A stretch of 63,587 bases of DNA, from assembly GCA_019828545.1 (NCBI GenBank), contig JACVRA010000182.1, positions 1 to 63,587 on the forward strand. The letters run 5' to 3'. Below, one piece after another: positions 29,232-62,769 of the stretch (position 1 is the stretch's first letter; every line of letters begins with the position of its first letter). The notes under the pieces were generated by a model that saw nothing but the letters and a program-made list of their open reading frames with translations, was not told the origin of the DNA and searched no databases. The stretch comes from Paracamarosporium sp. OC-R06-R3. Lineage: Eukaryota; Ascomycota; Dothideomycetes; Pleosporales; Didymosphaeriaceae. Both the position numbers and the translations under genes were made by a program.

Positions 29232-29337
29232 GGTTAAAGCGTAGACTTAGATCAAAAAGTCTGATATAGGAATTTTAGGTGTATAGTCGTTTTGTCAAGG
29301 GGTGAATAGCGTCACTTCGACATCCTCAAATCCATGG

Positions 29338-29348
29338 CCGGCGTCCGG
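29338..29348. promoter_or_regulatory. YCGGN3CCGR site (CCGGCGTCCGG)
   Basis: In the 339-base divergent promoter between the MFS gene (minus) and the CmcJ-like oxygenase (plus). Confidence 0.65.
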
Positions 29349-29570
29349 TTACGGGCCCCTGCACGGCCCGTCAGCCATGGACCCACACCAACCCGATCCA
29401 ATCATTTGCAAGTTATGCCGATCCCACAGTGACTAGTTTTACCTTACTGATCCTTACATACGTTCTTCTGCTTTAGAGACCGAATTCAATCAAACATTAA
29501 ACCCTCTTCAACTTATCTCGACCTAGAGCACCTTTCCCCACCGGCACCCTACTCAGAACCTAACTTCAAC

Positions 29571-30651: not shown

Positions 30652-30744
30652 CGCTAATTTTCCTATCGAATGTACAATCATCATGGTAATGGCATTCCAA
30701 TCGAAATGGCGGCTCGAGCTTCTGAAACATAAAGTGCAATTCGT

Positions 30745-32063: not shown

Positions 32064-32165
32064 GACATTTGTTTGTAAAGTGGAAGAGAGGGCTTTGCTG
32101 CGAAGGAGCTATGCGGAAGTGGTGATCGATGCTTGCGCAGGGGTACCCCGGTCAGCGCCAGGGGT

Positions 32166-32176
32166 CCGGAAACCGA
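32166..32176. promoter_or_regulatory. YCGGN3CCGR site (CCGGAAACCGA)
   Basis: About 100 bases upstream of the acyltransferase start (minus strand gene). The other neighbour is the 3' end of the O-methyltransferase. Confidence 0.62.
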
Positions 32177-32288
32177 ATACATCAATGGACCTGTGGGCGA
32201 CCGGATGCTCTTGAAACGTCCTTTGTTGGGATGCGAAATTCTATCAGTTCGCTCTATGATACACCCACCGCCCTTAACATGATACCAA

Positions 32289-33718: not shown

Positions 33719-33884
33719 GATGACTGTGCGGTTAGGCCAGAGTCGAAGATGGGTGAAGAAATGACTTGAAATTTTCTGAAGTTATGGTAGGAATGAGATG
33801 ATGAGGTCTTTGAAGAGTCCATACCCATCAATCTACTATCTTTCCACCTTCCCTGCCAATACGTATGTGCGGACACCGGCTGCA

Positions 33885-33895
33885 TCGGAGACCGG
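33885..33895. promoter_or_regulatory. YCGGN3CCGR site (TCGGAGACCGG)
   Basis: In the 287-base divergent promoter between the O-methyltransferase and P450-2. Confidence 0.65.
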
Positions 33896-34005
33896 AGGAT
33901 TTAACCCGATATGGGCAAAGACGGCCCATATCAGTAAAATACATCCTAGGTGGAACGTGATCAAGGGCAATCTCATACATTCTGTATTTTCTGCTCAACG
34001 TTGGA

Positions 34006-35828: not shown

Positions 35829-36565
35829 GTATTTTCAGAAGGTCGAAGCTATCAAAACAAATCAACTGCTCGCATCGAGGATGTTTTCCAATGCCAACAA
35901 GAGATCATGAAAGGAGCTTTGGCTAGATTGTTGTTCGGTTACTGTTCTTTGACTATTATTTAGGGGTTCCTTCGACTGGGACCATTGCAATGTCGTGATA
36001 GGCCAACACGAGAAATCGCAATATGTGGTGCTTGTAGATTACAGTACCCGAAACATTTACCTGTCATGAAAACCTCATACTCAGTGTAATGACACCCACA
36101 AGCACGATGATCTCAGTGGCTAACGTTCGGCATGCGCTCACGTTTCGGTTCACTACCTCCTGATTCGGGGGCCCAGAGCGGGGCCCGAACCGGGCCCCAT
36201 AACGTTGCCGTGATTGGCTGATACGTCCGGCAGCCGGCCCAGGCACCGAAGCGACTTGACCAATAGGCGCGTCGCGTTAGCGGTCCGATGCCTCTTGGTC
36301 GGCCTACATTCCGGCAACCAAACTGTATTGTAAATCTGGTGGTTGTCATGTCACGAGGACTGGTAATCAACTGGTTGAATGATAGTTACGTTTCGAGCAA
36401 TACCATATTGGGTGGGCCGAGTTGGAATTAGAGTTGCATTTGCCGGGGGATGGCGAACTTGTCCACAGTCAAACCTTTCCATACGTACCCAACAATTCCT
36501 CGAATCAAAAGCGAGCACTCAAATGCAATGTATAATCACATTAGACCCAGAGTTGTTGCGATACC
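35829..36565. other. Tail-to-tail intergenic region with an orphan regulatory site
   Basis: 737 bases between two convergent P450 genes. It holds a GC-rich inverted segment near 36169-36200 (GGGGCCC / CGGGCCCC) and one complete YCGGN3CCGR site at 36227-36237, although no gene start is nearby. I see no coding sequence. Confidence 0.5.
36227..36237. promoter_or_regulatory. Orphan YCGGN3CCGR site (CCGGCAGCCGG)
   Basis: It matches the cluster motif but lies between two gene 3' ends, so it has no obvious target. Confidence 0.4.
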
Positions 36566-38559
36566 TCATCCAGCCCGCTTCTTCAAAAGAATGGTCTGCT
36601 TCATATTAGGCGCAAACTGGCCCTCTATGAACATGGGCGGTGGCCGCTCTGAGCCCTGCCTATTCCACTTGATGTCGTATTCAACGAGCAGCTTAGTGAG
36701 GACCAACTTCATCTCTCGGATGGCGAGGAAGCGGCCTGGACAGACGTGATTGCCGTAGCCGAATCTATGACTGGGCGTCAGCACGCCCCAAGCAATAAAG
36801 AATGTAAATAGGTGGACGGAAATCTAGACAGGTAGATACAGAAACAGATGGGGGGTAGAGAGAAGATGTATACCCACGTCAAATTCGACGTCCCCATGGC
36901 ACTCGCGCTCCAGCGTCTACTCTGCTCTTCGACTTTTCCGCTTGCCTCATCTTTATTCATCTTCGCGAACCGAAACCCGTCGAATTTCGTCGGGCGCGCC
37001 AATCCATCGCCGTCACTCTGCAGCGCCATGGTCGGGAACCCGAAGCGCGTGTCGACGGGCAGCGTGAGGCCGTCCGAGAAGCGGAAGGGGGTGCCGATGA
37101 CGGTGCGGACGCATGTGACTAGCCTTTGTCTTAGCCTCTCTTCTGTTCTTGTTCTAGGATTGAACATGCGAGTATTTGAATGAGATGGTCTGTAGGTAAA
37201 CTCGGGACGAGAATAAAAGGGGGAAAAGTGGGAAGAGAAATACGTACTAGAACCCGTAGGAAACAACCGATTCGTCTCCCTGATGAAGCTATCCTGCAAC
37301 GGCAGACCATTCAACAGCTTTTCAGACCACTTGTGTGCTTCCACCGCTTTCCTACTCTCCTCCCGCAGCGGCGCAATGTAGTCTGGGTGCAGGAGCAGCT
37401 GGAACACTATTTCAGTCATGAGACCGCCTGGGACCGAACTTGCAGCCCAGAGATTGTGAAGGAGTTCTTCGGTTACGCTATGCGCTGTGTTGAAAGGCGA
37501 GGATGCCGGTGTGAGATTCAAATTCCATTCGATGGCATCGAGGTTCACTTCTGTTCCTGGCGTTGAAGAGGCAGATTGGTATTGAGCTACTCGGTTGTGA
37601 ACAACTGGGAGGGCTATTTCGGTGCAGCGGTGTAACTTCCATCTATGTGGTATGGCTAATAGCCGTGAAATGAGAGGTCGAAGGGGACCGAGGGGAAGCT
37701 TAACGATCACTAAAGCTGTGATGAAAATGGAAGTTGCGAAGCTTTTAGACTCATTGTGAAATCTTTCGTTCCGGCAGAGTTCCCGCCCGAAAAGGATTCG
37801 TGATGATATGCGGTGGACGATGTTGGCGAAAAAGTCCATGGCTGGGATCTCTTGCCACTCTACGACTCGAATTAGTTGACGGGTTGGATGTATGTTGGAT
37901 ATTCATTATGTACCGGACGAATTTCCAAGCTGGCGATTGAACTCGAAGTCGACCTCCTCCAATATGACAGGAGTAAGTTGTGCTGATTGCAGTTCAATAG
38001 GTTTCTTGTTACGCTCGGCCACAGTACATACGAAGGCGGGGATTTATGCCCTTCTTCACTACCTCGACCATGCGTTCAGCCGGATATTCAGCATACATCT
38101 TGCCAACAGCCAGGTAAAGGAAGAAAGACTAGTTTGAAGACGTCTCGCATCAGTATTATTGGTCTTGATGTTCTGCTCGAGATTGGATATACATACATCA
38201 CTCAAAGCTTGGAAGAAACTGAGATGTCCCCATCCTGCACCTTTCAGCTCTGAAAGGTACTTCGGCGGCATTACAAGCGCATCATCTGCCCACCAATTCA
38301 TCGCGAACGGTTTGCCCTGTGGTTTGATTACCTGGAACCCGTTTTAGCTTCATGTTCGCACACGAGAGCCCACTGCGCTAACCCTATCATATCCATCCTG
38401 CACAACTTCATGAATTGGCTTGTACCCAGTCCAGCCAGCACTAATCCATGTAAAGTTTCGATACACCCCCGAGCCTTGCTTAGCTGGGATCAAGAGTAGC
38501 GATAGCAGCCCTATGGCGATCAAGACCCACGTGCGTGGTTCGACGGCATTGACGTCCAT
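36566..38559 (-). CDS. Cytochrome P450 (P450-3)
   Basis: Read leftward from ATG 38559 to the stop at 36566, with at least five exons. The N-terminus has a membrane anchor (TWVLIAIGLLSLLLIP). The body contains VHRISSRILFGRELCRN, an I-helix with WAASSVPGG in place of the common A-G-x-D-T, the ExxR ETNR, the P-x-x-F-D-G-F-R-F segment and the heme loop FGYGNHVCPGR. The splice before the heme loop joins to FGYG after intron removal. The unusual I-helix and the heme-loop form resemble the fungal group that includes gibberellin/kaurene-type and GliF-like oxidases. It shares a promoter with the GtmA-like gene at 38810, where two motif copies sit. Confidence 0.85.
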
Positions 38560-38670
38560 AATGGGATGATCCACGTGCCCTGCTAACGCAAAGGCAAAAT
38601 AGAGAATTTACGCAATGAGATCGCAGACAGTGTGCATGCCATGCAGAGATGAGGCACAACCAAATATTTT

Positions 38671-38681
38671 CCGGAATCCGG
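38671..38681. promoter_or_regulatory. YCGGN3CCGR site (CCGGAATCCGG)
   Basis: First of two adjacent copies in the divergent promoter between P450-3 and the methyltransferase at 38810. Confidence 0.65.
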
Positions 38682-38683
38682 GT

Positions 38684-38694
38684 CCGGTATCCGG
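38684..38694. promoter_or_regulatory. YCGGN3CCGR site (CCGGTATCCGG)
   Basis: Second of two adjacent copies, offset by 13 bases from the first (two bases between them). Confidence 0.65.
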
Positions 38695-38809
38695 ACAGGG
38701 AGCTGTGAGGTACGTACTCGGTCTACACCATCTAGTTGGATACTAGACGTCGCTACTCCAACATCGAGCTCTAAACGTTGAGATAATCCAAGCCGTCAAC
38801 CCAAACACA

Positions 38810-39670
38810 ATGGCCGCCCCACAAGCTTCACAGTCATCCTTCATCCCAAAGCAAGCCATCTCCAAAGACCCAGCCCTCTACGCTTCCTTTACAGCGGGCG
38901 CAACCCAAGAAGTCGCAGACCGCGTCCTCGCACTTTTCCCTTGCGACTCCATAACCGGCTACATCCATGACAATGGATGTGGCGCCGGCGAAGTGACCTC
39001 TGCCGTTCTGTCACTTGATCCACCACCTTCCAACATTTCTATCTACGCAACTGACATCGACCAGCCCTTCCTCGACAAATTGCAAACCCGAGTTGACGAG
39101 AAGAAATGGCCTGTCACAATCACCAACATGCCGTCCGAGAAATTGGATTTTGAAGATGAGAAGTTTGATCTGAGCTTTGCAAATTTCGTCATCTTCCTCA
39201 CACCGCCTGATGGCGTTGCCGCTCTGCGCGAAAGCTATCGTACGCTCAAACCCGGCGGCACTCTCATACACACCGCCTGGGCTGAACTTCCTGTCGTCGG
39301 GCCTACCAAGACTGCGCACAATGCCACACGCCCAGGTTCCTCAGCGCCCCTTCGTGAGATCCCACCGCAGTGGACGTCTGCTCAGCATCTTGTTCATGTG
39401 ACTGTGCAAGCGGGTTTTGCGAAGGAGAAGATTAGGCTAGAAAAGGTGCCGCAGTACATGAAGATAAGTGATTTGAATGTGTTTGCGGAGATGATGTGGA
39501 GTTATCTGGGGCCGCCGGTAACAGGGTGGTTGGAACAGGATGAGGGGAAGTGGGATGAGGCGGTGGGTATTTTGAAGAGGGAGATGGAGAGGGCGGAAGG
39601 GTTCAGGAAGGCGGAGGATGGCGGGTGGGAGATGGTTAGTATTGCGAACGTGGTCATTGCTGCGAAATAG
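38810..39670 (+). CDS. SAM-dependent methyltransferase, GtmA-like (286 aa)
   Basis: Single exon, ATG 38810. A class I methyltransferase with SAM motif I IHDNGCGAGEV, a motif II acid in YATDID, the post-motif segment FDLSFANFVIFLT, and LKPGGTLIHTAW. The overall pattern (DNGCGAG, a W near the PGG strand, a C-terminal MWSYLGPPVTGW helix) recalls the fungal GtmA/TmtA family that S-methylates ETP thiols to bis-methylthio forms. A close relative lies at 41397-42293; both share the W-SYLG-P-TGW region, so they are paralogues. An N- or O-methyl acceptor is possible, because acceptor choice cannot be read from these motifs. Confidence 0.82.
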   Translation: MAAPQASQSSFIPKQAISKDPALYASFTAGATQEVADRVLALFPCDSITGYIHDNGCGAGEVTSAVLSLDPPPSNISIYATDIDQPFLDKLQTRVDEKKWPVTITNMPSEKLDFEDEKFDLSFANFVIFLTPPDGVAALRESYRTLKPGGTLIHTAWAELPVVGPTKTAHNATRPGSSAPLREIPPQWTSAQHLVHVTVQAGFAKEKIRLEKVPQYMKISDLNVFAEMMWSYLGPPVTGWLEQDEGKWDEAVGILKREMERAEGFRKAEDGGWEMVSIANVVIAAK

Positions 39671-40026
39671 AGGGTGCAGTAAAGTAGTTTCTGTAACCAT
39701 CATGGGTGTTGTTCAAAATTTCGTTTTTTGGGGTAGGCTTCACTGTAGACCAATGTATTCGGGGTGCGAGCGACTACGTAGCGATCCCTGCATGCGTCCT
39801 TCTCGCACGATTCAAGTACATGAATGGCCATAGCTCCATGCGGCGTACATAAAGTGACGTACTATCATCTTGCAATCTTACAAACTGTGCCATAATCCAA
39901 CATATCCCACGCACTGTGCCGCAATCCAATATTACTATTTATCCTTGGGGATAAATTAGTACCGGTCGGGACGGATCTCTTGAGTGGCGTATCATCTTCC
40001 CATCCAACGCCATCGACACAATCACA
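39671..40026. promoter_or_regulatory. Promoter region of the first UMTA methyltransferase
   Basis: 356 bases. No full YCGGN3CCGR site; the nearest is CCGGTCGGGACGG near 39962, which does not fit the spacing. Nothing else seen. Confidence 0.4.
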
Positions 40027-41016
40027 ATGGCGGACCCCGAAAGCACCACCACAGAAGGCCCCAAAGATGAGTACATCATGGGCGCCAACGAAGTCGAGCT
40101 GCACCGCCTGACCCTGCAACACGCCATACTGAAGAACCACATGGGAACGCTCACGTTCGCACCCGTGGACTTTACGCAGGCGGGACTCAGAATTTTGGAC
40201 GTGTGCACCGCGGATGGTACGTCAGATTAATCTTCTCAGTAGCAACCCAGAGCACCCATGCACTCCCATCCCGAGACACTATCAAACCCCCATCCCCCCA
40301 TTTACTAACATAACCCCGCAACAGGCCTCTGGCTCCGCGACCTCTCCGCATCCCTCCTCCTAACGACCCCCCCACACACCCTCATCGGCACCGACCTAAC
40401 ATCCCCCTTCTTCCCACCCCCATCGACCCTCCCCCCAAACCTCACCCTCCAAGTCCAAGACATCTTTGACCCCTGGCCCACCGCCTACCTTCACTCCTTC
40501 GATTACGTCCACCAACGCATGGGTTTCGCCGCACCGGGCCCCGTAATGCTACACTCGCGCGTCACCAAACTGATCGAGCTCGTGAAGCCAGGCGGGTGGA
40601 TTGAACTGCTTGAAGCGGATGTGCAGCCGCATGCGTCCTCGGGCCCCGAAGCCGCGCTATTTACGAAGACGCTAGGCGCGTTTCTGGACTCGGGGGGAAT
40701 TGGGAAGGGCTATGCGCGTGAGCTGGCGCCAATTTTGGAGGAGGCTGGGCTGGTGGATGTGCAGGTTAAAGAGTTTGAGGTTCCGTATGGGGCGACGAAT
40801 CCGGATGGGGAGATGGCGAGGAAAGGGGTCGAGCATATGGTGTTGGTGGCGAAGGGTTTGAGCGAGGGGGCAAAGATGATGAGGGGGATGGGGATGGCGT
40901 TGGGTGTGGAGGAGAGTGAGCTGGAGGGGTGGCCGGAGAGGTTGGAAAGCGAGGTTAGAGAGAGGGGGTTGTATTTTCGGATTTTGGGGGTTTGGGGACG
41001 GAAGAAGGGTGAGTGA
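40027..41016 (+). CDS. UMTA-family methyltransferase, GliN-type (293 aa)
   Basis: Exons 40027-40216 and 40325-41016 give 294 codons. It is a class I methyltransferase of the fungal UMTA/LaeA-like group: an N-terminal EVELHRLTLQHAIL helix, motif I ILDVCTAD-G-LWLRDL with the intron inside it, then GTDLTSPFFPP, FDYVHQRMGF, and VKPGGWIELLEAD. GliN, the gliotoxin amide N-methyltransferase, belongs to this group, so N-methylation is the leading guess. The motif I glycine context differs from the canonical GxGxG (CTADG), as is common in UMTA proteins. A second copy at 44984 shares gene structure and key segments. Confidence 0.82.
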
Positions 41017-41396
41017 GGGGGCGGGAGGTTGAGGTCGTAAGGAAGGATTTGCTGGGGGCATGTTTGTGATGGGGACATGTAGCATGCTGAGAATGACATC
41101 GTTATGAAAGTCCGGAATTTTATTTTGGTCGGTCACGTTGTGGAATCTGTCCAAGAGATATCAGAACCTATGGCCTCGCAGTGAGAGTTATTCTAGGAGA
41201 GTGCAGCCGTGCCAGTTCAGTGTGTAGTAAAACACCAGTTCCCGCTATTCACTGCACCTACCCGAGTAATCCCATCCAAGGAGCCCAAAGAATCAGTCCA
41301 GGAAGGCTAGTAACACTACACCCGCATGTCCAAGCCTGACATACCCTTTCCATACATGGCAACGGCCAACACCCAGCGCTAGCCATGGCCTCTCAC
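41017..41396. other. Convergent intergenic region
   Basis: 380 bases between two 3' ends. No gene, motif or repeat seen. Confidence 0.5.
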
Positions 41397-42293
41397 TCAC
41401 TTAGTAGCCACAGCAATACAAGCCACCATCCTCAACACCGTCTCGCCCTTCTCATTCGTCGAGATGCCATCACCAGCCTTCATCTGCTCCTCAATATCGC
41501 TCACCGCCTCCTCCCACTTATCCTCATCATTCTGGCTCCATCCAGTCGGCAAGCTGCCCAGATAACTCCAGGCCAACTGACTCCACCTAGCCAAATCTGG
41601 AATCGCGACATAGAAGTCCTTCTCGTACGTCTTAATCTTGCCGTTCTCGAAGCCACCCGCAACAAGTGCTGCGCGCAGGTCTTTCTCCTGGTAGTCCTCC
41701 AAGGGGAGAAGCGTGGGCATGGGTCCGTCGCGGCCACGGGTCCTCCAGTGCGCGTGCTGCATAGCTGCTACATGCGGCATATACACCCAGACGCTCGCCA
41801 CGGCCGTGCCGCCTGGCTTGACGGTCCGGTAGACTTGCTTGGCAGCGGTGATGGCATCGCCAATACAGTGGAATGCAAATGCAGTGAAGGAGTGCGTGAA
41901 GTGCGCGTCCGGAAACGTGAGTTCCTGCGCGGACATGGTGGCGGCGGTGACGGGCCAGCCCTTTTCCTTTGCAAGCGCGCCGGTGCCTTCCGCGAACTGA
42001 AGGTTTACGTCCGTGGCGTCGATGTGGATCTTGGGTGGTGAGGTGCTCATGATAGCTGCGGTCATGGCGCCGGCGCCGCAGGCGTTGTCGTGCACATTGT
42101 CGTCTTGACTGAAGGGGGGAACGAGCTCGAGCCTTAGTGTTGTAGTACCGTGTTAGTAGATGTTGGTAAGAAGAGAGCTGGGAACAGCTCCTTACATGTA
42201 GAGTGATGCCTTGTCGCTGACATCTCCCTGTAGCTCGGCTAGGTGCTCAGCCTGATACTTGGTAATCTGCTTTGGCTGGAATCCTGATGCCAT
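41397..42293 (-). CDS. SAM-dependent methyltransferase, GtmA-like, second copy
   Basis: Two exons: ATG 42293 to 42196, then an intron of about 65 bases (donor GTAAGG, acceptor TAAG) and the main exon to 41397. Motif I is DNACGAGAMT, the acidic residue is in DATDVN, and TVKPGGTAVASVW and WSYLGSLPTGW follow. It resembles the 38810 gene and the GtmA/TmtA thiol methyltransferases, with a slightly closer motif I (DNACG). Likely acceptors are the ETP thiols. One motif copy at 42489-42499 lies 196 bases upstream. Confidence 0.82.
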
Positions 42294-46619: not shown

Positions 46620-47714
46620 TCACGAAATACAGCTGCATTGCCCTGCCTCATTTGTACCCTCCATGGCCTTCTCATCTGCATCCCCATTTGCAACCCTCAC
46701 TCCCCTACTCCTCGGCAACTGCCTTGCAATTCCACACCCAGCAAAACTCCCCATACTCATAGCATTCGGAATCATCCTTAGCGGGCTCGCACAATCGCCT
46801 GCCGCAAACACACCCTCAACATTAGTCTGATTAAATGGCGGCATCACTTTGATACCAAAGAACGGCGCCATCTCAAGACCCAGCTGGGCGGGCAACTTGG
46901 ATGAGAGAACCATGTCCGGCTTATGCACAAGGAAGGCTAGAGTTTCCGATGTGCCCTCCGTGAATGAGATGTCAATGTCCGTTCCTTTTTGACCGGCCGC
47001 GAACCTAGCGATGGGGCGATCGTCGACGGCAATGGAGGAGAGGTGGCGTGAGCGGATGGCTTCAGCAAGGCTAGCATTATTGTTCGTGTAGATCGTGACT
47101 GTATCAACAAATTTGAGTGCGTCTTGTGCGTTTGTGACGGCGTTGTCGGGGTTCTCGAGGAGGGCCGTCGCAAGTAGGCCGGCGCGTTTTGCGTTGCGTT
47201 GCTCGTAGCCGAAGCAGAACATGCAGTAAAATCTTTCGGCCGTAAGCTTTGCTCAAAAGGCGTCGGTGGGTGATATTGGATTGTCTCACATTTTTTGTCC
47301 GTAGAGCTCTGCATATCCCTCAATGTCCGGGTAGACGTCTTTCATTCCCATTGCCAAGAGCAGCTTCCTTCCAGACCACGACTTCTCATTGTCATCAATC
47401 ACCGCAAACGTTCCGTCGTCATTTTTTAGAGCAGATGTTGCTGTTGAGGAGACAAAGTCGACGAGCCCATTCCTGTGGAGTTCTGCTCGCGAAGCTGCCC
47501 TGAGATCATCTGCAGATTTGTTTTCCCACGCGGGTGTCAGATGTGTTCGGGTTGAGCTCTGATTGCGAGGAGCAGCCGAATCGATAATGAGACATCGGTG
47601 AAGGGCGCGGTACAGTGTCAAAGCAGCTGCGAGCCCAGCATGGCTTCCGCCAATGATAATCACATCGTATAGTGGTGATGATGTACCTTGAGAGGCTGAA
47701 AGAAGCGAAGGCAT
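46620..47714 (-). CDS. gliT-like: GliT-like FAD disulfide oxidoreductase, copy 1 (345 aa)
   Basis: Exons 47714-47290 and 47232-46620, with a 57-base intron between them, give 346 codons. The FAD/NAD-binding fold starts with YDVIIIGGSHAGLAAAL. The redox-active pair is in CMFCFGYE, encoded just after the intron. The second nucleotide motif and the closing GVFAAGDC are present. In gliotoxin producers GliT oxidises the dithiol to the disulfide and protects the producer. An in-frame ATG at 47771 would add 19 residues; I prefer 47714 because it lies directly before the FAD fold. The C-terminus ends in GQCSCIS, adding two cysteines. A second copy is divergent from it across 270 bases. Confidence 0.88.
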
Positions 47715-47816
47715 GATTTCGGCGTCACGACAAGGACTGTTGATACCACGGTGTATCTCCTCGCACGTCATTTGACGTCTGGTTGTACGAACCAGTCGGA
47801 GACCGCTAGTCTATCA

Positions 47817-47827
47817 CCGGCTACCGG
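47817..47827. promoter_or_regulatory. YCGGN3CCGR site (CCGGCTACCGG)
   Basis: Central in the 270-base divergent promoter of the two GliT-like genes, within a larger palindrome TCACCGGCTACCGGTGA. A related TCGGAGACCGC lies at 47795. Confidence 0.68.
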
Positions 47828-47984
47828 TGATGCTCGGTGCAGATGCGTGCATCCGCATCCAGTTCCTAGATGCCGGGCTAGTACAAAAGCAGGCCTACCA
47901 TGCACACGGAGTAACAGTTCCAATCTATCTGCCAGATCTTCCTGCAATCTTAGGGACACTCACTTGCCTACCAAAAGCAAAGCC

Positions 47985-49016
47985 ATGGGATCGGTCGAAG
48001 AAAGCAACGTCACAGATGTGCTCATCATCGGAGGTGGGGTAGCAGGTCTAGCAGCTGCGCTGACCTTAGCTCGCCAGCTCCATACAGCGATTGTGTTCGA
48101 CTCGGAGGTATATCGGAATGCCCCAAGCGCACGCATGTACAATTTACCGACATGGGACAACAAAGACCCCAAGGAGTTTCGAGCCGCGGCAAGGCAGAAT
48201 ATCTTGGAATACTATAACACAATCCAGTTCCAGAATGTCGAAATCACATCTCTAAAGAGGGAAGAAAGCAGCGGACTGTTTGTAGCAGGTGACTCGACGG
48301 GCGAGACATGGCAGGGGCGAAAAGTCATATTCGCAATAGGAGTTCGAGACATCTTTCCGGATATCGAGGGGTACGACAAATGCTGGTCCAAAGCCATGTA
48401 AGTCTTCTATCCATTTGAGGGAAGCGCTTCCTACGCAGCACAAGCTCATGTCCGCAGGTACCACTGTTTCTTCTGCAAGGGATACGAAGCTCGAGGCGTC
48501 AGCCGTGCAGGGGTGCTGGCATTGCCTGATTTGGCAAACGTGCCGACTGCCCTGCATTTTGCCAGAATAGCTCGGCGCTTCACGTCTTCCATCACTATCT
48601 ACACCCACGGACAGGATGAGCTCAAGCAAAAGATCCTAGACGCGCAAGGTGATAACAAGGTCTTTAATGTCGACAACCGTCGCATTGTACGTTTCGAGAA
48701 AGGGCCAAATTTCGCAGACGTGGTACTTCACTTCGAGGACGGCGATTCTGTGACAGAGGGCTTCCTTGGTCACAAGCCGCCCACAGAGCCAAAAGGAACT
48801 CTACATAAACAGCTTGGTTTCGAGATGAATGCGATGCGAGATCCGCAGAGTACCCCTCTATTCTATGAGACCACCGTCAAAGGCGTCTTCGTTGGTGGGG
48901 ACAATGCCTCGCCGATCAAGATTGTACCACAGGCAGTATTTTCAGGATCCTCGGCGGGCGCTGCATGCTGCGCGCAACTTCAAGCGGAGGCATGGGGTCA
49001 GCCTTGTATTTTTTAG
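47985..49016 (+). CDS. gliT-like: GliT-like FAD disulfide oxidoreductase, copy 2 (323 aa)
   Basis: Exons 47985-48397 and 48458-49016 give 324 codons. The FAD motif is VLIIGGGVAGLAAAL, and the redox pair sits in CFFCKGYE right after the intron, the same place as in copy 1. The C-terminal GVFVGGDNAS keeps the second FAD contact region. It therefore looks active but differs from copy 1 around the active-site pair (K versus F after the second Cys). Either copy may serve ring closure, with the other serving self-protection or a related step. The protein is predicted soluble. Confidence 0.88.
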
Positions 49017-49540
49017 CAGACAAAAGCACACCGAAGCAGCTTGTCCGTAAGAGTCGGAAGGGAACCACTGTGCTGGGTTTTGCATGGGTATTTATCATAT
49101 GTATACTCATTCTCTGGTTGGTCTGGTTTGAAACAGTGATTTGCAACGGTTGCGTGCCGAGGTGGCGTTGTGCATGCGTCTGCAGGAGATATTGAGCTGT
49201 AGATGTTCCGAAGCTGATTTGCAGGCTGATATCCCACTCGTGACGTCTCGGCTTCCGGATTTGGGATCATCGTTTCGACCCCCATTCAATAATGAGTCGC
49301 CGAGGAGCAAGGGTGGCGACCGTTTGAGGCGCTGCGATTGTGTTGGCATCTGCGGCTCGTCCCATCCCCTCGGCGCATTTGGAATGTAGAAAGTGGCCAA
49401 GTGCTGTGCCGCACCCGTTCCGTTGAGCTCCATCGCGCATTGCATTTTTTGGCTCGTGAATCCTGCAACTCCTTGGCGAGACGCCACGAAGAAACTTTTT
49501 TGTCAAAGGTCGTCTTTTGTTCTCGTCTAGATCTTTCCAG
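49017..49540. promoter_or_regulatory. Promoter region of the 14-helix MFS transporter
   Basis: 524 bases with one motif copy at 49248-49258. No gene is seen. Confidence 0.5.
49248..49258. promoter_or_regulatory. YCGGN3CCGR site (TCGGCTTCCGG)
   Basis: 282 bases upstream of the MFS transporter start codon. Confidence 0.6.
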
Positions 49541-51235
49541 ATGAGCAACAATAAAACTCCAGGGCCCACCGAGGTGCCCGTCGAAACTATGAAGGAAGAG
49601 AGAGGAGACGACTTTCCGGTAGAAACGGCGGAAAATACTCCCCAGAGCACCAAACGTGGCTACCAGTTTTGGTTGATCATCCTTTCAGGATGCCTCGTCG
49701 ACCTTGCGTCCGCACTCGATACTACGATCATCACTACCGCGTTACCTAAGATCACCGAAGTTCTCCACGGAAACAGCTACTATGTGTGGATGGCCAACAC
49801 GTACGTTTTCGCATGCACGGCCGTCATGCCATTCGTCGGGCAGACATCGAATATCTTCGGCAGAAGAATGCCAATGATCATATCCGTGGTGCTGTTCTCT
49901 ATAGGGAACGCCATCGCTGGAGGTGCTGTCAACCCAGCCATGTTGATTGCTGGAAGGGCAGTCACAGGCCTAGGAGGCGGCGGTATCTTCGTCCTGAACG
50001 ACCTTATTATAAGCGACCTTGTTCCGGTACGGGAGCGGGCCAAATTCCTCGGTATTCGGATTGCCATCGCAACCGTTGCCGTGACTACTGGTCCGGTGCT
50101 TGGAGGAATCCTAGCGCAAAAATCATGGCGCTGGGTTTTTCTGATCAATCTTCCGATCGCGGGTGTGGCGCTGGCCATCATGATTCCTTTCATGCGCCTG
50201 AAGCATAAGCGCGAACCGACTTGGGCTAAGGCTCTCGCGCGCGTCGATTTCGTCGGAAACGCCATCTTTGTCGCATCTATTGTCGGCGTCTTGTTTGGCT
50301 TAGTCATGGGTGGTACCGAATATGCGTGGTCGTCATGGCACATATTCGTTCCTCTCGTCGTCGGCTTCATGGGATGGGCTCTGTTCCACGTTTACCAGGC
50401 TTCGCCCTGGTGCAAGGAACCGAGTGTTCCTCCGTTGCTCTTTCAAAATAGAACGTCTGTAACAGGACTGGCTCTGACGTTTCTCGCTAATATTTTGCTT
50501 CAGTGGGTGGGCTTCTTCCTACCCATCTACTTCCAGAGCTTGAAAGAAAAGACACCTCTAATATCTGGAGTCGAGATCCTCCCGTTCACTTTTCTCTATG
50601 TTCCCGTGGCAGTCTTCTCCGGAGGTCTCATGTCCAAGGTGGGCAAGTACAAGCCGATTCACTTTGCCGGTTTCATGTTCACAGCGGTCGGTTGTGGCCT
50701 ACTTTCAATCCTCGGACCCTCATCACCCACTGTTGAATGGGTTTTCTTTGAATTTTTCCTCGCCATCGGCGCCGGCCTCACCATGATCAGTATCCTGCCC
50801 GTCATCCAGGCTGCATTGCCTGAATCTTACGTTGCGCAGGCGACAGCTACATTCGCGTTCGTTCGTAACTTTAGTTTTGTTTGGGGTGTCACAGTACCAT
50901 CAGTCATTTTCAACGCAAAGATAGACAGCAATTTGCATCGGATCACCGACAACGATTTGCAGGCCCGTCTAGGCGGCGCTAGTGCTTACGGTTACGCGGG
51001 TACCGGCGCCATCAGCCGTCTCCCATCAGAGACAAAGGCGCAGGTGCTACAGGTGTACAAAAGTGCACATAGCGCAATATGGCAAGCTGCAGCGGGATTT
51101 GCGGCCGTGGGCTTTTTGTGTGTCTTCCTCGAGAAACACATCGAGCTCAAGATGGACATGGACAATGACTTTGGCTTAGAGGAGGGCGGAGAGAAGAAGT
51201 CAGGCGCATCAGGTGAGTCAAAAGAGGTACCATAA
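49541..51235 (+). CDS. gliA-like: MFS drug:H+ antiporter, DHA2/14-helix type, GliA-like (564 aa)
   Basis: Single exon; I chose ATG 49541 (MSNNKT) over an upstream non-ATG extension. About fourteen hydrophobic helices follow a 45-residue polar start. The DHA2 motif LDTTIITTALP is in helix 1, the motif C antiporter segment GPVLGGIL is in helix 5, and the C-terminal tail is acidic. In ETP clusters GliA/SirA-class pumps export the toxin. This is the best candidate for export across the plasma membrane. It lies beside the GliT-like pair, which groups the resistance functions. Confidence 0.9.
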   Translation: MSNNKTPGPTEVPVETMKEERGDDFPVETAENTPQSTKRGYQFWLIILSGCLVDLASALDTTIITTALPKITEVLHGNSYYVWMANTYVFACTAVMPFVGQTSNIFGRRMPMIISVVLFSIGNAIAGGAVNPAMLIAGRAVTGLGGGGIFVLNDLIISDLVPVRERAKFLGIRIAIATVAVTTGPVLGGILAQKSWRWVFLINLPIAGVALAIMIPFMRLKHKREPTWAKALARVDFVGNAIFVASIVGVLFGLVMGGTEYAWSSWHIFVPLVVGFMGWALFHVYQASPWCKEPSVPPLLFQNRTSVTGLALTFLANILLQWVGFFLPIYFQSLKEKTPLISGVEILPFTFLYVPVAVFSGGLMSKVGKYKPIHFAGFMFTAVGCGLLSILGPSSPTVEWVFFEFFLAIGAGLTMISILPVIQAALPESYVAQATATFAFVRNFSFVWGVTVPSVIFNAKIDSNLHRITDNDLQARLGGASAYGYAGTGAISRLPSETKAQVLQVYKSAHSAIWQAAAGFAAVGFLCVFLEKHIELKMDMDNDFGLEEGGEKKSGASGESKEVP

Positions 51236-52416: not shown

Positions 52417-53795
52417 ATGAGGCTCCGATCGGCTTGTAACCAGTGTAATGTTGCCAAGGTCAAGCTCCCCGCACCTCCGTCTGCACGCTGTCCTCCCATG
52501 GTAATTTTTTCTGATCGGCTCTGTAGGTCAAATGCAGTGGAGAGCGTGATGGATGCAGTCGATGTAGGAATGTAGGGATGGAATGTATATACACCGAGTC
52601 TAGAGTAGGCAAAGTCCAGGGCCCGAGAACAAAGCGGCGGAAGTCTCAACTCGGTGCTGCAGCGCCTGTGCAATTGCCATCAAGCACGATTCAAGTGACG
52701 GCTTCTGCAACTTCACCGACTGCGTCTATACGTCCAGCTTCAAGGCCTGCCCAGATAGCCACCTCCTCCATCTTGAACGGGAGCGAACATGGCGACGTCG
52801 CATCGACACGGCTTCCCGTCTCAGCGGCTCAGACGTCGGTGCATAGCCCTCCATCGGCACTCACACAGTCGCTTCAAGACTGGTCGACCGAGCCATGGGC
52901 ATCAGAGTCATGGAACCAAGACATACTGTCGCTGGATGGCCAGATGACTACACTTGATGACATCTTTGGCGAAACTACCACGACCCCAAGGCATAACGAT
53001 GCCATGGGCGGAGTGATACCGTCTGACACCAGCAACACCATCGCCACCAGCCTTGCGTGCTCAAGCGATGTCTATTCTAGTATCTCAATAGGTACTGCCT
53101 CCATTGCCTCGCCTTCGCCTGCTGCTTTTAGAGCCATCAACGACCCGCCGCCGCCTTCTTTACCTCCGCCACCCCGCAAACTCAGCCGCGAAGCAGAAGC
53201 CGCTCGAGCCCGAATAGACAGCAAGTGTGTGCTCGCGACGACGCAAATCATCACCACGCTCGAAAACTACCTGCTCTCGGACCTCAAAGCGCTCGACCTT
53301 ATCCTCAGCACCGTGCGACGCACCAACGACGAGCTCCGCAAGCTGGTCGGCTACCAGCGCCAGTCACGCTGCGAGCGTGTCGTATTCCTTTTCTTCGGCG
53401 TCATGCATCAAATTATCGAGCTGCTAGAAGTCGGCTCGCGCACGCTAGCAGAGAGCATCGATGGTAGCTCGAACGACTCGGATTTTCAACCTAGCACGCC
53501 CACCTCTAACTTCATGGACGCCGACCTCACTGTCCCCATCGTGACGACGCCCAGCTTTCCGGCCTTCGGCGGTCTGGGTGCATTCAGCGTCTCCGCAGAG
53601 GAGCAGAAGAGCTGGTGCAAACAGATCCTGCGTCGCGAGTACCAGTACACGGGCGAGATGCTGCAGAGCGTGGTTGCACTGGCAAAGCTGGGGCCGGCTA
53701 ATTCGCCGCAAACACCCCAAGATATCGCGATGCGGTCAAAGTGTTTAGAAGGAATCGAAAAGAGATTCAAGGAGCTGTGTGATCGGGCCGGGTAG
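52417..53795 (+). CDS. gliZ-like: Zn2Cys6 transcription factor, GliZ/SirZ/AflR-like (436 aa)
   Basis: Exons 52417-52458 and 52527-53795 give 437 codons. The intron cuts the DNA-binding domain: exon 1 supplies ACNQCNVAK, exon 2 continues VKCSGERDGCSRC and MECIYTESR, producing a complete C-x2-C-x6-C-x6-C-x2-C-x6-C binuclear zinc cluster. A basic segment GPRTKRRK follows. The middle is Ser/Thr/Pro-rich. The C-terminal third (about 210-320 and 370-430) is helical with Cys and Leu, as in AflR-type regulators. Zn2Cys6 dimers typically bind CGG half sites; the palindrome CGGN3CCG found across the cluster is a good candidate target. Its own promoter lacks a full site. Confidence 0.88.
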
Positions 53796-54949: not shown

Positions 54950-57900
54950 TCACAGGACCCACATATCACGCCCGAAGAACTCCTCTTCACCTACAATCTC
55001 CTTTCCTTCTTTCGCCAGATTTTTTATATCTTCGCTTATCCCTCGCAGACATGCCTTAATGACGTCATATGTATCCCCCATGACAACGCCGTTCAGAGCT
55101 GTTACAATCATGTCCCTCAAGCTCTGAATCTGTGAGGACGTGAAACAGCTTGAGCTGTACTCGAGTCGTATAAGGAGGGCATCTGGATTCACGACTACAA
55201 ACTCAACCATGAGCGGGAATTTGGCACCGGTGGTATACGTGTACAGCGGCATTGCGTCGACGTCCGAGGAGGAGAACGGTGTCGAGGAGTAGCTCGGATG
55301 GTAGCTAACCATGACGTCGAAAATGTCTCTTCTATTCTCCACCTCTAATCCGGCCTGTATTTCGGTTCCGGTTTTCGACAGAAGTGACGATACAATCCTG
55401 GAAGGCAGCGCGTGCGCCAATGCTGCCTGACTTGATTCCTGTACCGCCTTTACAAGATCGTCCATCTTGTGACGGCGAATAGTTGACTTTGGGGTTCTAG
55501 GACTGCTGGGATATCGAATGCGCACACCCAAGGCCTCCAACCACAAACCCACAACGCCCTCCTCCTCACCTTTTCGTCCTAACAGCGGTGCGCCAAGCAC
55601 AATATCTATATCTTCTCTATGGCACTGCAGTGCCAGCGTCACTGCCGTGAGAGCGAGCTGGTGCGGAGTCGTTCTGTGGGTTTGGCAGTAGCGGGTTAGA
55701 GCATAGAACGTTGGAGTAGGAATGCGGCTGACGAGCGAGAAGCCGGTGGTAGAATACTGAGCTCGATAGGTCCAAGTGCCTATGCTATATTCCAGTGTTT
55801 TGGAAAGATCTTGCAAATAAGAGGTCCAGAAAGAGGTGTCCGTCGTTGAAGGTATGCTGGGCGTTAAGTAGTTTGTATATCCTTTGGAAGAGGCCAATCG
55901 CACGTTGGGATATGTGTATACATTTGCCACTTCGCGGAGGAGAATATGTAGGGTCGTGTAGTCACAAAGTATATGATGCGCGACGAAAAGAAGGGTAGTC
56001 GGTGTGATGATTACTCGAACTAAGTCTGACGTCGATAGGTCAAACGGTTGGTTTACTTCTGTCCAGAGATCGACAAAATCTTGCGATGAGACGGTTGGTG
56101 GATGTTCTGCTAGGGTTCGCAGGACAACGCCGGAGACCCTCGTGTATCGACTTCGCAGGAGTTCGTGCCGGGCAAGAACACAGTTCCAGGCTTGTCGTAT
56201 TTTATCTCTATTGACGGAGGGACTGAGTCGGAATGCGAAGGAGACATTGGAAGACGGACACGACCCGTGTCTTTCGTATCTTTGCCACCAGTACCTTTCG
56301 ACTCCAGAGAGTAGGCTCAAATGCCCGGCACTTGGAGTCACGATTGTGCCAGATGCCTTTAGATTTCGCACTTCTTGCGTTAGCGCGCCGAGATTTGGTT
56401 CCTTGATAACTACTCTTAGAGGTACCGTGTACCCCACAAGCGAGGAAATCCTGTTGGCAAGGTGCAACTGCGCCAAAGAATGTCCACCCAATTCGAGAAA
56501 ATTGGACTTCTCGTCCAAAGTGACACTTTCCGGTAGATCCAGAAGTCGTCTCCATACTTGTGCGATCTGGGTTCCGAGTGGCGTCGTGACCTCCTCGATC
56601 TTTGCTTTCGGAACTGGCTCTGTCTTGTTCAATTTAGAAAGTGTTTTGTAGTCAAGTTTGCCGGCCAGGGTCCGTGGGAAGCTAGACACGCTTGTGATAC
56701 CATGTGGCCTCGCATATGCCGGCAACTTTCTCATCAACACCTCCCGCGCTTCCGTCCTATTGATCGTCGCCGGTTGGACATATGCCAGAAGCAGGTCTCC
56801 CTCGCAGACTAGCGCCACAGCCGTGCAACCCATAAGAGCTGCCTGTATCCTGATCTCCAAATCATCCAGGTCGAGGCGAAACCCCCTCAATTTGACCTGC
56901 CGGTCATTACGGCCTAGAAATCGCAGTTCTCCGTTTTGATCCCAATACCCACGATCACCTGTACCGTACATCTTCTCGCCCTCATGCAAAATATCGTCGG
57001 AAAATCGCTTCGCCATTTCCCCCAAGCAGCCAATGTATCCATGCGATACTTGCACGCCGGCGAGGTAGATCTGGCCGATCACTCCAGGCGGAACCATTTT
57101 CCCAGCTGAGTCCAGTATGTATATTCTAGTTGATGGATTTGGGGTTCCCAGTGTGACTGACATATTTGGATGCAATTGCTTGATCGTAGCTCCGCATGTA
57201 GCCTCTGTGGGACCGTACATGTTGAATAATTGCATTTTTGATGCCCATCGAGTCGCTAGCTCTTCCGCAACTGCCTCACCAACTAGATATACTGCCTTGA
57301 GGTTCGGTAAGTGTTCAGGAGTGAGAACCTTTGCGACGGAGGGGGTTAGTATGGCGGCGTCCACGCTGGCCAGGTGTGCAAAGGGGTCGTTTCCGGTCTG
57401 TAGGACGAGTGTCGCGCCGTAGCTTAGTGCGGAGAATATCTCGTGTATACTACCGTCAAATGCGGGTGACATGATCTGGGAGATACGCCATCCGGGAGCA
57501 GATTGAAGGCGTACGCTGAAGTCTTTTTGGAAAGCCACAAGACCTTGATGGGTGCAAAGAACGCCTTTAGGACGGCCGGTTGAGCCGGAGGTAAAGCACA
57601 GATATGCCGGGTGGTTCGGATTGTATCCAGTAGGTTGTGGATATTGCACTGCAGACAAAGAGCCGATAGAGTATGTGGACTGCTGGGTGAGCACTTCGGC
57701 CACGGAAAGACACAGGGCTCCGGTGGGGATATTAATTGGCCTACTCGATGAATCGCCGGTCAAGAACACCTTGGCTCCTGACTGCAAGAAGTTCTGTTCG
57801 CGAACCTCGTCTGGAAGTGCCTCGTCCAAGGGGCAGTAGACACCCCCAGCTTTCAGAATGCCGTAGATTCCAACGATCCAGTTCATCGAGCGATCTGCAT

Positions 57901-59753
57901 GCACACAGACAATATCCCCAGGCGAAACGTAGACAGATATTCCTTCGGCGACGGTTGTAGACAATGTATTTAGATCTGAGTATGATATTCGGGTATTTCC
58001 CTTTTCAACCGCAGTCGCATTGGGATGCCTTCGAGCCGTAGCCTCAAAAATTTCATGGAGGTGCTCAGTGTAATATCCGGGATGTGTCTCTGGTGACAAG
58101 CAATTTCCATTCCGAAGTAGCTGTGCCTCTATCGTCGGATGTAACAGACCATCCATGCATTCGCCGATGCTCAGTCGTTCATTCAGTAATACGCGGACAG
58201 CGTTCGCAAAGATTCGGCCTAGCGAAATCATGTCAGAAGCGTGGTATCTGTGACCGTGGTAATTTATTCGCATGGGTCCTCTAAGGCAGACATCGAGATA
58301 TAGTGGTAGCCCAGAAACCGTCTTGTGATTCGGTTTTCTTTGCAACCTGAAAGGGCTTGGTTCCACCATAGGTGCTTCGACATGGATGTTTAGCGTTGAT
58401 GGATATGCACTAGTCGCCGCACTCGGCGCCCCTGTCCATTGCATCGTCTCTAGTTCCACAAGATGTTTGAATACACGGTGCAAGAACTCCTGCACTTGGG
58501 TCTCTGAGTCAATAGAGAGGTAGAAAGGCACCGTGTTGATCAATGGACCGACCACTTCAGTTGCGCCAGCAACAGGCAAGCTCCGGCCTGATAGAACAGT
58601 GCCGAAGCACACCTCGTCCGAGTCCACGTACTTGGCTAGTGTCATGGCCCATGCAGCATGTATTATGGTAGCTACAGTGATTCCAGTCCTTTGGGCATAC
58701 TCGCGTAGTTTTTCGTGTGGACACTCAAGGTTAACTTTGACAGTCGCATAAAACGGTGCTTGATCATCGGCTGGGAGAGAAAGCAGTAGTTCTGACTTTG
58801 CAGAAGCACGTTTCTTAGCCTGTCGTTCCCAAAAGCTTCCGTCTTTGGAATTGGCTTGTTGCCGCAATTCTTTCATTCCCTGAGCGACCTTGACGAATGA
58901 CAATCCCGATGTGACGGGGAGGGCGGAAAGGGCTCTTCTGTGCTTATTCAACAACAGTGCGATAGAATATCCGTCGATTAAGGCATGATGGATTTGCAAA
59001 ATGACCGTGCTTTCATCTTTTTCTTCCCGAGTGTCCTTGTAATGAAGTACGTGAAAGATGACCTCCATGGAGTCGGTCGGGACATGAGCGTTTTGTAGCG
59101 CATAATCATACGTGCTCCGACTGTATACTGTCTTCTCTGTCCATTTGAAGGTCGCTGCACCCTCTTCAATCATGTGATATCCATCTGCGGTTGGCTGGAA
59201 CTTCGTCCGGAATATGGGTTCCAATGATACAACCTTTTCCCACGCATTTTTAACGCGAGCGATTTCATGTGTCGCGTACGTCTCGAAATAGTGGATAATA
59301 TTCTCCCCTGGAAGAGCTTTGGTCCCATATATCAGGGCGTTTTGCATTCCTGTCGCGTTGGATTCCGATGTCTCGGTGCTGGGAGGCTGAACAGGACTTG
59401 ACGCAACGATGGCTCGTCCATGACATCGTCGAACAGATCCCTTCTTGGCATGATCGATCAGTTCAGAAAGAGTGTTGCAGGTAAGTACCTGCGCGACCGT
59501 GATGTTTATGCCGTAGAGCCGGCAGGCGGAGACCAGTTTAATTGCCGTGAGGGAGTCTCCACCTAGACGGACGAAACTTGAACTCCAATCTGCCTTGGAG
59601 ATCGCAATTTTTAGTTGTACTCCCACTTCCCGAAGTATAATATCTCGCGCTGAATACGCCAGAGATTCTTTCCACAGAGTCCCGAAAGCCCGGGCCCAGA
59701 GACATTCCAAGGCCTCGGGCCCAGAGGTAAGAAAGGACAACAATGTATTCATT
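54950..59753 (-). CDS. gliP-like: Nonribosomal peptide synthetase core, T-C-A-T-C, lacking the first A domain
   Basis: One uninterrupted frame; the first ATG is at 59753 (about 1600 aa). Order by approximate residue: carrier domain with LGGDS (69), condensation domain with HHALIDG (261), adenylation domain with FTSGSTGRPKG (726), FNMYGPTEAT, YGTGDRG (934) and a late lysine in LAGKLDYKTL, carrier domain with LGGHS (1090), and a second condensation domain with HHILCDY (1265) in which the usual final Gly is Tyr. GliP-type synthetases read A-T-C-A-T-C, most with a terminal T. Here the protein starts directly at the first carrier domain and stops after the second condensation domain. No room for an adenylation domain exists upstream, where the promoter and the GGCT-like gene lie. 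The frame is otherwise clean, so this is either a working shortened enzyme loaded in trans or a recent truncation. Confidence 0.92.
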
Positions 59754-59925
59754 GAGACAAAAGGCAAGAAACAACAAAGTCTTGATGAGAGTGGTGACAG
59801 TAGGAGCCCTGAGAGTAGCTTGAGGAAGCAACGACGAAGTCATATGCTGATCGCTCGGCGAGATCTGCGTTTATTTTGATCTCTTGGTGTTAACTATTTC
59901 TGCAACGGACCTGCATTTGCCCTAG

Positions 59926-59936
59926 CCGGCAACCGA
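59926..59936. promoter_or_regulatory. YCGGN3CCGR site (CCGGCAACCGA)
   Basis: In the 276-base divergent promoter between the NRPS and the GGCT-like gene. Identical to the copy before P450-1. Confidence 0.66.
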
Positions 59937-60029
59937 TGTCTAGGCAGTCGGGAATAAATTGTCGTTATATCCAGCTTACACAGAAAGTCTGATGAGACAG
60001 CCTCGAATTGTTGCTGTCAAACAAACAGT

Positions 60030-60933
60030 ATGCCTGTACTACTTACTCTCGACCGACCAACTACCACAGTATGGTATTTAGCATACGGCTCCAACCTCAG
60101 CGCCCAAAAGTTCATTCACGACCGCAAAATCATACCTCTCAGAGCTATCCCCGTCACAGTGCCTGGCTATGTGCTCGAAATGAATAGTGCGGGCGTGCCA
60201 TACTCCGAGCCAGCATTTGCCAGTATCTCGCCTCTCGAATACATTGGCCAAGAGAAGAAAGTACAATTAGTTGGCACGTCATATCTGCTAACTCCGGATA
60301 TGTATACCAGGGTCATTGCATCCGAAGGAGGCGGAATTGCATACAAGGAAATCGAAGTGACGGCTGAGGCGTTATCGGACACTGCCATGGCGACTTCGAC
60401 GAAGGCATCCCAGTCCAGAACCGCCCCAGGGCCAATGACGGTAAGGACACTTGTCACACTGCTACCTAGACGAGCAAGACCGAGTCTGAGATACATGGTA
60501 AGTCTGTGGACCTTGCATATTCCGGCGCCCGCCACCACGCCCGCATACGTATCTCTCTGCCCCTTTCCCAATCGGCTTTCCGAACGTTGACGTTTTGCTG
60601 CAGGATCTTCTATGTACCGGCGCTAAAGAAGCGGCTATGCCTCAGTCATACCGGAATTTCCTGGCGCGGATACCGACTTATAGCCCGCCGACGCAGGGGC
60701 GGCGGCATATTGGCGCTGTCGTATTCTTGTCCATCTGGGTGCCCGTCATGTCATTGATGGAGAAGATCACCAAGGCATCGTTGAAGGGGAGCAATGATGG
60801 GAACGCCCCGAGATGGGTGCTACTACTGGTCCGGGCAGTGGTTATTTGCATGTGGTGGTGTCACGATTTTATGTTTGCGCCGATTTACGGGAGGGGAGAT
60901 GGACTCGATGATGAAGAAGGTCAAGGGATTTGA
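60030..60933 (+). CDS. gliK-like: Gamma-glutamylcyclotransferase-like protein, GliK-type (265 aa)
   Basis: Exons 60030-60497 and 60604-60933 give 266 codons. The N-terminal YLAYGSNLSA is the substrate-binding loop of the GGCT fold, followed by PVTVPGYVLEMNS and YLLTPDMYTRVIASEGGG. The C-terminal part has hydrophobic helices (GAVVFLSIWVPVMSL and RWVLLLVRAVVICMW), as in GliK. In ETP biosynthesis GliK removes the gamma-glutamyl group from the glutathione adducts before the dipeptidase acts. It is divergent from the NRPS gene, a pairing that fits co-regulation. Confidence 0.88.
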
Positions 60934-61366: not shown

Positions 61367-62769
61367 ATGGGCACAGAGTATCCAATTGATTCCAAAAGTC
61401 CAAGATGGGCCGCCTCTCCAAAATACGTACCGCGCGCAAAGTCTCACAAGTCAAAACCATTGATTTCTCAAATCTGCTGTCTTATTGGAGCTATCACGTG
61501 CACGTGTCTACTTTTGGTTTTGTGGTCTAAGAGCTCGCTTGGACTTAGGCTGCTTGGTGGTGGTGGTGGCGACCTTTTTTCATCCGCGCCCCTAATAGGT
61601 ACGTTCTGAGATGTAATAAATGTCAATGGCAAGACGTATCTCACAAGACATGTAGACGGTCACAATGATTTCCCAATTTGGATCAGGGCCTTTTATCAAA
61701 ACCACATCTACCAGCAAAACTTCTCGGACGAACAGAATCTGTTCGGTCAAGTTGATTTCCGGCGGTTAAAAGAAGGACGAATTGGAGCTCAGTTCTGGAG
61801 TGTATATGTTGAATGGTATGCCATGTATAAATATTTTTTACGGCGGTTGGCGACCCTCTTGTTAACGAATGGTACCTCAGTCCCAAAGAGTCCGGTAATT
61901 ATTCCGAGGAAACATACCGCGAAATCATCCACGACACCCTCCAACAAATCGATCTGGTGTATCGACTGATCAAGGAATTTCCAAACCATCTCCAACACGC
62001 ATTTTCAGTCGACGAGGTGAAGTCAAGTTTCGCCTCCAACGGCAAGATTTCGAGTCTCCTGGGGATCGAGGGTCTACATCAAATTGGCAACAGTGCCAGC
62101 ATTCTTCGCATGTACCATGCTTTGGGCGTGCGCTACGCTACATTAACACATACATGCCACAATGTGTTTGCCGACAGCGAGGAACCAGATCAGCCACAGC
62201 ATAACGGCCTGTCTGAAGCCGGAGTTAGCATGGTCAAAGAAATGAATCGCCTAGGGATGATAGTCGATCTCTCCCACACCAGTATCGCGACGCAGCACTC
62301 TGCGCTCGCAGTCTCCGAGGCGCCGGTCATCTTTTCCCACTCGAATGCCTATGCGCTACGTAAACATACGCGGAACGTGCCCGATGATATTCTTTTAGCG
62401 CTGAAAAAGAACGGCGGCGTGATCATGGCGACATTTTATCCCGCTTTCACGGCACTTAATTCGAGCGAAGCGTCGTTGAGCGACGTAGCGGATCATATTC
62501 AGTATATTGGTGAGCTGATAGGATACGAACATGTAGGCATTGGGTCCGATTTTGATGGTATGGATCACGGACCCAAGGGACTGGAGGATGTGAGCAGATA
62601 TCCGAATTTGGTTGAAGAATTGCTAGGGAGAGGAATTCCGCGAAGGGAAGTCGAAGGGGTGATGGGAAGAAATATCATGAGGGTTTTGGAGGAGGTTGAG
62701 GGTGTAGCAATGCGGAAGAGAGACTTGAGACCATTGGAGGACGATGTGAAGCCTTTCTTCGGAATGTAG
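61367..62769 (+). CDS. gliJ-like: Membrane dipeptidase, GliJ-type
   Basis: ATG 61367. Exons 61367-61598, 61656 to about 61814, and about 61890-62769. An N-terminal signal anchor (ICCLIGAITCTCLLLVLW) precedes the renal-dipeptidase fold. Zinc ligands and active-site segments are visible: DGHND right after the first intron, GIEG, DLSHT, IFSHSNAYAL, and GIGSDFDG. In ETP pathways GliJ removes glycine from the bis-cysteinylglycine adduct. Length and domain are normal for the family. The upstream promoter has a motif copy, and the gene appears to be the last of the cluster on the right. Confidence 0.9.

Follow-up and report, generated by a model that had tools for sequence, protein, structure and literature searches.

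A Paracamarosporium epipolythiodioxopiperazine-type synthetase with one adenylation domain appears to be an ordinary member of a single-A family

Contig JACVRA010000182.1 of the fungus Paracamarosporium sp. OC-R06-R3 (assembly GCA_019828545.1) carries a nonribosomal peptide synthetase (NRPS) that raises a simple question: has it lost its first adenylation (A) domain, or did it never need one? The NRPS lies in a cluster with open reading frames (ORFs) for tailoring enzymes typical of epipolythiodioxopiperazines (ETPs), namely a glutathione S-transferase (GST), P450s, a dipeptidase, an aminotransferase and pyridine-nucleotide oxidoreductases. A preliminary description of this DNA had set the enzyme against the gliotoxin synthetase GliP and had offered three explanations for the absent domain: the first carrier (T) domain is loaded in trans by another enzyme, both carriers are served by the one A domain present, or a 5′ deletion has silenced the cluster. 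We analysed the whole contig of 63,587 bases, referred to here as the window. Judged from sequence, the NRPS appears to be an ordinary member of the single-A ETP synthetases, of the AtaP/BcNRPS1 kind, with nothing missing, and the second of the three explanations is the best supported.

One open frame with two carriers and a single A domain

The NRPS coding sequence runs on the reverse strand from the first in-frame ATG at 59752 to the stop codon at 54950 and encodes 1,600 residues plus the stop; the preliminary description had the lower end right but placed the upper end one base too far, at 59753. Over the same interval the other five frames contain 42 to 74 stops each. Pfam matched AMP-binding (A) once and Condensation (C) and PP-binding (T) twice each, and boundaries set by hand and confirmed with phmmer gave the order T1-C1-A-T2-C2, with neither a first A domain (A1) nor a third carrier (T3). 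The FTSGSTGRPKG motif is present. Because only 25 residues remain after C2, too few for a carrier, the protein has no C-terminal T3, and a search for a separately encoded one nearby with PF00550 (93 of 93 candidates scored, 88 matches) found nothing on the contig besides T1 and T2 of the NRPS itself. The earlier reading of a T-C-A-T-C protein in one clean frame, without a first A domain or a last carrier, thus stands, and the enzyme departs from the bimodular GliP type at both ends, having no A1 before T1 and no T3 after C2.

We also looked for the absent domain upstream. The NRPS start is separated by 277 bases from the ATG of a divergent ORF at 60030, and a search of the contig for A domains (E up to 0.001) returned the NRPS gene as its sole match, which upholds the earlier claim that no A domain is hidden there. 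A full A domain lost through an assembly error, or lying in a hidden exon, might be entertained for a draft assembly of 337 contigs; given that the short intergenic stretch and the divergent ORF follow directly, and that 15 aligned relatives likewise begin at T1, we find this scarcely credible.

The relatives examined lack a first A domain and the room for one

A recent 5′ deletion that removed A1 and silenced the cluster would account for the difference from Aspergillus fumigatus GliP, which has the layout A1-T1-C1-A2-T2-C2-T3 and makes cyclo-Phe-Ser (PMC9030297). Had it occurred, close relatives should still possess a complete first module. In our homologue search we scored the 7,990 candidates with the most words in common and obtained 5,229 matches, of which the best 120 were examined; with the window NRPS they form a comparison set of 121 proteins. 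These relatives are 1,156 to 1,695 residues long, plus one of 2,013 residues with a P450 domain. The exact order T1-C1-A-T2-C2 was found in 105 of the 121 (104 of the 120 relatives), and the other 16 comprised nine C1-A-T2-C2, three T1-C1-A-C2, one C1-A-C2 and three with split or extra pieces (P0025, P0049 and P0086). None of the 121 rows (0 of the 120 relatives) had an A domain before C1, and none of the relatives a full A-T-C-A-T-C, in a scan whose seeds were single sequences cut from the window NRPS, so that a very diverged domain could escape it. In all 121 proteins C1 begins at or before residue 198, which leaves no room for an A domain upstream.

The N-terminus of the window NRPS is likewise not short. 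It places 66 residues ahead of the T1 serine, where the family range is 22–67 with a median of 42 (113 rows with this column filled), and so stands at the long end of the family. The relative P0002, which is 68% identical over 99%, starts at the same place and shares with the window NRPS its layout, its A-domain code and the C2 motif HHILCDY. The aligned T1 serine is present in 112 of the 121 rows (a gap in eight, threonine in one) and the T2 serine in all 121. With no A domain ahead of C1 in any of the best 120 of the 5,229 matches, with a frame of 1,600 codons that is open and keeps its conserved motifs, and with no remnant of A1 found on the contig, we reject the deletion, to which we give practically no weight.

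A quick tree of 120 rows, rooted at the midpoint and drawn without a bimodular GliP, paired the window NRPS with P0002 (SH-aLRT, the Shimodaira–Hasegawa-like approximate likelihood ratio test, 100) inside a group of 18 rows (SH-aLRT 100). The row dropped from the tree but kept in the counts, P0025, is a Botrytis cinerea gene model with extra A-like pieces at residues 1207–1496, behind T2. Since proteins of the same layout group with the window NRPS and none of them has an A domain before C1, we assign it to the single-A T-C-A-T-C group. The longest of these relatives, P0024 from Monosporascus sp. (2,013 residues), includes a P450 among its domains, and its C-terminus lies 478 residues beyond the C2 end anchor; it is possibly a natural fusion or a merged gene model.

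Published ETP synthetases with the same layout

The layout has precedents, being usual in a widespread group of ETP synthetases with a single A domain. AtaP of Aspergillus terreus, the acetylaranotin synthetase, is also an ETP-cluster enzyme with a single A domain; it has T-C-A-T-C as its listed layout and joins two Phe (PMC4274970), and we liken it to the window NRPS by that listed layout. A fused AtaTC is named in its cluster; in the window, P450 and oxidoreductase ORFs are separate. AclP, which makes the aspirochlorine core in the Aspergillus flavus/oryzae group, reportedly yields cyclo-Phe-Phe, the same product as AtaP (PMC9030297). It served as a query of a 2026 survey of single-A NRPSs, and its likeness to the window NRPS as an ETP synthetase is one of description. 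That survey lists 719 NRPSs with a single A and two C domains, drawn from 278 fungal species; 243 have the order PP-C1-A-PP-C2. It takes the view that one A domain is enough for a peptide of two identical residues, and it predicts Phe for almost all of the 278 proteins in its Group 3 (PMC12881047). An ETP-cluster NRPS of Monilinia laxa has 1,592 residues, the layout T-C-A-T-C and Phe as its predicted substrate, and the same layout occurs in B. cinerea and Sclerotinia sclerotiorum (PMC8988988). These BcNRPS1-type enzymes resemble the window NRPS and belong to the ETP module 2 proteins, among which Bushley and Turgeon (2010) described members whose first module is incomplete or degenerate (PMC2823734). 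GliP is an ETP synthetase too, and T-C-A-T-C is the middle part of its described layout; unlike the window NRPS it has A1 ahead of T1, T3 behind C2 and cyclo-Phe-Ser as its product.

The statement that GliP-type enzymes start with an A domain therefore holds for GliP. Because the AtaP/BcNRPS1 group does not start with one, the earlier framing of the window NRPS as defective was wrong. The absence of A1 would be no sign of decay, since a single-A T-C-A-T-C layout appears to be normal for homodimeric ETP synthetases.

The genome search yielded no second ETP-like A domain

If another enzyme with an A domain instead charged T1 in trans, the product would be heterodimeric. The genome does hold other NRPS or adenylating loci: 15 matches to PF00501 (14 of 105 candidates scored), and 49 to the A domain of the window NRPS, the gene itself included (61 of 61 candidates scored). 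We relied on this A-domain search, as the others scored fewer of their candidates (14 of 105 for PF00501 and 29 of 78 for another). In it, no second ETP-like A domain was found. The best match after the gene itself reached 153 bits against 928, and matches that spanned 350 or more of the 405 query residues were 26–34% identical, with some short ones closer (up to 43% across 82 residues). Queries with the complete protein, its A domain and PF00501, run against contig and genome alike, turned up nothing ETP-like, and we rejected a hidden first module. Bushley and Turgeon raise the possibility that single A domains of fungi act for other NRPSs (PMC2823734), and the contig ends soon beyond the cluster. 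Set against this are the lack of any other A domain on the contig, the failure of the complete search to find a free-standing ETP-type A domain in the genome, and AtaP, which with the same listed layout makes homodimeric cyclo-Phe-Phe (PMC4274970, PMC9030297). We consider loading in trans improbable.

The A-domain code and a proposed route to cyclo(Phe-Phe)

We next compared the substrate code of the A domain, its ten positions placed by PheA numbering. The code DGHLYVMCGK is identical in 98 of the 121 rows, the window included (97 of the 120 relatives); a further 22 rows depart from it at one or two positions, and one row (P0016) at six. Among the identical rows is P0026 of Monilinia laxa (1,593 residues), which is 40% identical to the window NRPS over 95% of the query and which we matched to the published M. 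laxa NRPS by species and length only. The code of the group is predicted to specify Phe, on the strength of predictions in the literature.

From these sequence comparisons we infer that the A domain, the only one present, selects a single amino acid, most likely L-Phe, and charges both T1 and T2 with it. C1 would then join the two loaded residues, and the terminal C2 would cyclise the dipeptide off T2 without a third carrier. The homodimeric ring released in this way would most likely be cyclo(Phe-Phe), and we hold this overall scheme to be very probable. The P450, GST, dipeptidase, aminotransferase and oxidoreductase encoded nearby would then convert the ring into a disulfide-bridged diketopiperazine. 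A homodipeptide core, probably cyclo(Phe-Phe), can thus be predicted for an uncharacterised cluster. A review assigns cyclisation in GliP to the terminal C domain and T3, and adds that T3 can be absent (PMC11610984). The way in which a single A domain charges two carriers, and in which C2 acts with no T3 behind it, becomes a question for the whole family and not for a single gene. One tentative answer, which we put forward as a conjecture with the odds somewhat against it, is that the A domain serves T1 across C1 or in a partner molecule and that C2 cyclises from T2 without T3, in a family-wide mechanism distinct from that of GliP.

Several points weigh against loading of both carriers by one A domain and release by C2. 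The A7 motif of the window NRPS (residues 929–933; 56954–56968, reverse strand) is YGTGD, where 113 of the 121 rows have YRTGD or YKTGD; P0002 differs from the window NRPS here and has YSTGD. The string DGHLYVMCGK did not occur in the papers searched for it, and the link to Phe is indirect. A neighbouring gene is possibly missing, because the assembly consists of 337 contigs and the contig, all of which is in the window, stops 818 bases beyond the last cluster ORF. The title of a 2019 study by Baccile on the terminal carrier of GliP, cited in the same review, reportedly states that both cyclisation and thiolation domains are required. Finally, Patron et al. (2007) regarded the cluster NRPSs other than that of G. 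zeae as bimodular, those of A. terreus and A. flavus among them (PMC2045112). The same paper describes module 1 as unusually divergent in A. flavus, A. oryzae, A. terreus and M. grisea (PMC2045112), a divergence that we infer could reflect a missing A1.

The preliminary description had also singled out the tyrosine that ends the C2 motif HHILCDY. The residue is present, and it is an ordinary minor variant: the last position of the motif is leucine in 99 of the 121 rows, tyrosine in 18 and phenylalanine in three, with one gap. We therefore rejected it as a lesion. The second histidine and the aspartate of the motif, both kept in the window NRPS, are conserved in 120 of the 121 rows, and the first position is serine in 112 and histidine in seven. 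From this alignment HHILCDY is a minor but ordinary form of the C2 motif.

Surroundings and distribution of the cluster

The cluster neighbours were read ORF by ORF and not as gene models (Table 1).

Table 1. Features of the NRPS and of its surroundings in the window
Feature	Coordinates	Strand	Basis
Single-A ETP-type NRPS, 1,600 residues, T1-C1-A-T2-C2, unbroken frame	54950..59752	-	Translation, Pfam, domain order
T1 carrier, residues 36-105, LGGDSL	59438..59647	-	Pfam, phmmer, alignment
C1 condensation domain, residues 135-540, HHALIDG	58133..59350	-	Pfam, phmmer, alignment
A domain (sole one), residues 560-1040, code DGHLYVMCGK	56633..58075	-	Pfam, phmmer
T2 carrier, residues 1058-1130, LGGHSL	56363..56581	-	Pfam, phmmer
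C2 terminal condensation-like domain, residues 1145-1575, putatively cyclising	55028..56320	-	phmmer, alignment
HHILCDY motif of C2	55958-55978	-	Alignment
Divergent intergenic region, A-domain remnant not detected	59753..60029		A-domain search, ORF starts
Divergent neighbour ORF (stop-to-stop 59958-60590), no family match	60030..60590	+	First in-frame ATG; no Pfam or NCBIfam match
Peptidase_M19 dipeptidase ORFs	61610..62769	+	Family match
Zn(II)2Cys6 regulator ORF	52527..53795	+	Partial Zn_clus match
Major facilitator superfamily (MFS) transporter ORF	49460..51235	+	Family match
FAD/pyridine-nucleotide oxidoreductase ORFs, CxxC (CFFC)	47700..49016	+	Pyr_redox_2 on first ORF; second ORF without family
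Second pair of oxidoreductase ORFs, CxxC (CMFC)	46620..47810	-	Pyr_redox_2; TRX_reduct far below cut-off
Further ETP-type ORFs: GST N-terminal domain, three P450 stretches, ABC transporter pieces	20235..42152		Family matches
Further ETP-type ORFs: class I/II aminotransferase, O-methyltransferase, two Methyltransf_11/25-type methyltransferases	20235..42152		Family matches
Further ETP-type ORFs: MBOAT piece, CmcJ/NvfI-type oxidoreductase (below cut-off)	20235..42152		Family matches

The divergent gene had earlier been labelled GGCT-like; no Pfam or NCBIfam family match confirmed this label, and its YLAYGSNL stretch bears at most a resemblance to GGCT. We take the Peptidase_M19 ORFs to be GliJ-like, and both CxxC oxidoreductase sets to be thioredoxin-reductase-like, of the GliT kind. 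The two sets stand head to head, and their stop-to-stop ORFs overlap.

The pattern of identities along the contig is uneven. A protein kinase ORF is 83% identical to a protein of Karstenula rhodostoma and 80% identical to one of Bimuria novae-zelandiae (both Didymosphaeriaceae, Pleosporales), which places the fungus near that family. Among the best 120 of the 5,229 matches, the top NRPS relative with a named source belongs to Annulohypoxylon moriforme (Xylariales), at 46%, and the NRPS of K. rhodostoma is 39% identical to that of the window. As far as these sequence identities go, the pattern fits the discontinuous distribution described for ETP clusters (PMC2045112).

Several weaker or peripheral ORFs were also observed. 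The CmcJ/NvfI-type oxidoreductase ORF (29451–29999, forward strand) scored 69.4 bits, under its cut-off of 80, and the MBOAT_2 piece (30745–31185, reverse strand) 28 bits against a cut-off of 25; both fall within the cluster region and are possible tailoring genes. One P450 stretch (36778–37902, reverse strand) is a weak match, at 30.8 bits against a cut-off of 22.8, and could be intron-broken or diverged. At the cluster edge an ORF with a cyanovirin-N homology (CVNH) domain lies at 18795–19259 on the forward strand. Farther out, two ORFs of the Beta-lactamase serine hydrolase family occupy 6003–8032 on the reverse strand and are perhaps one gene with an intron.

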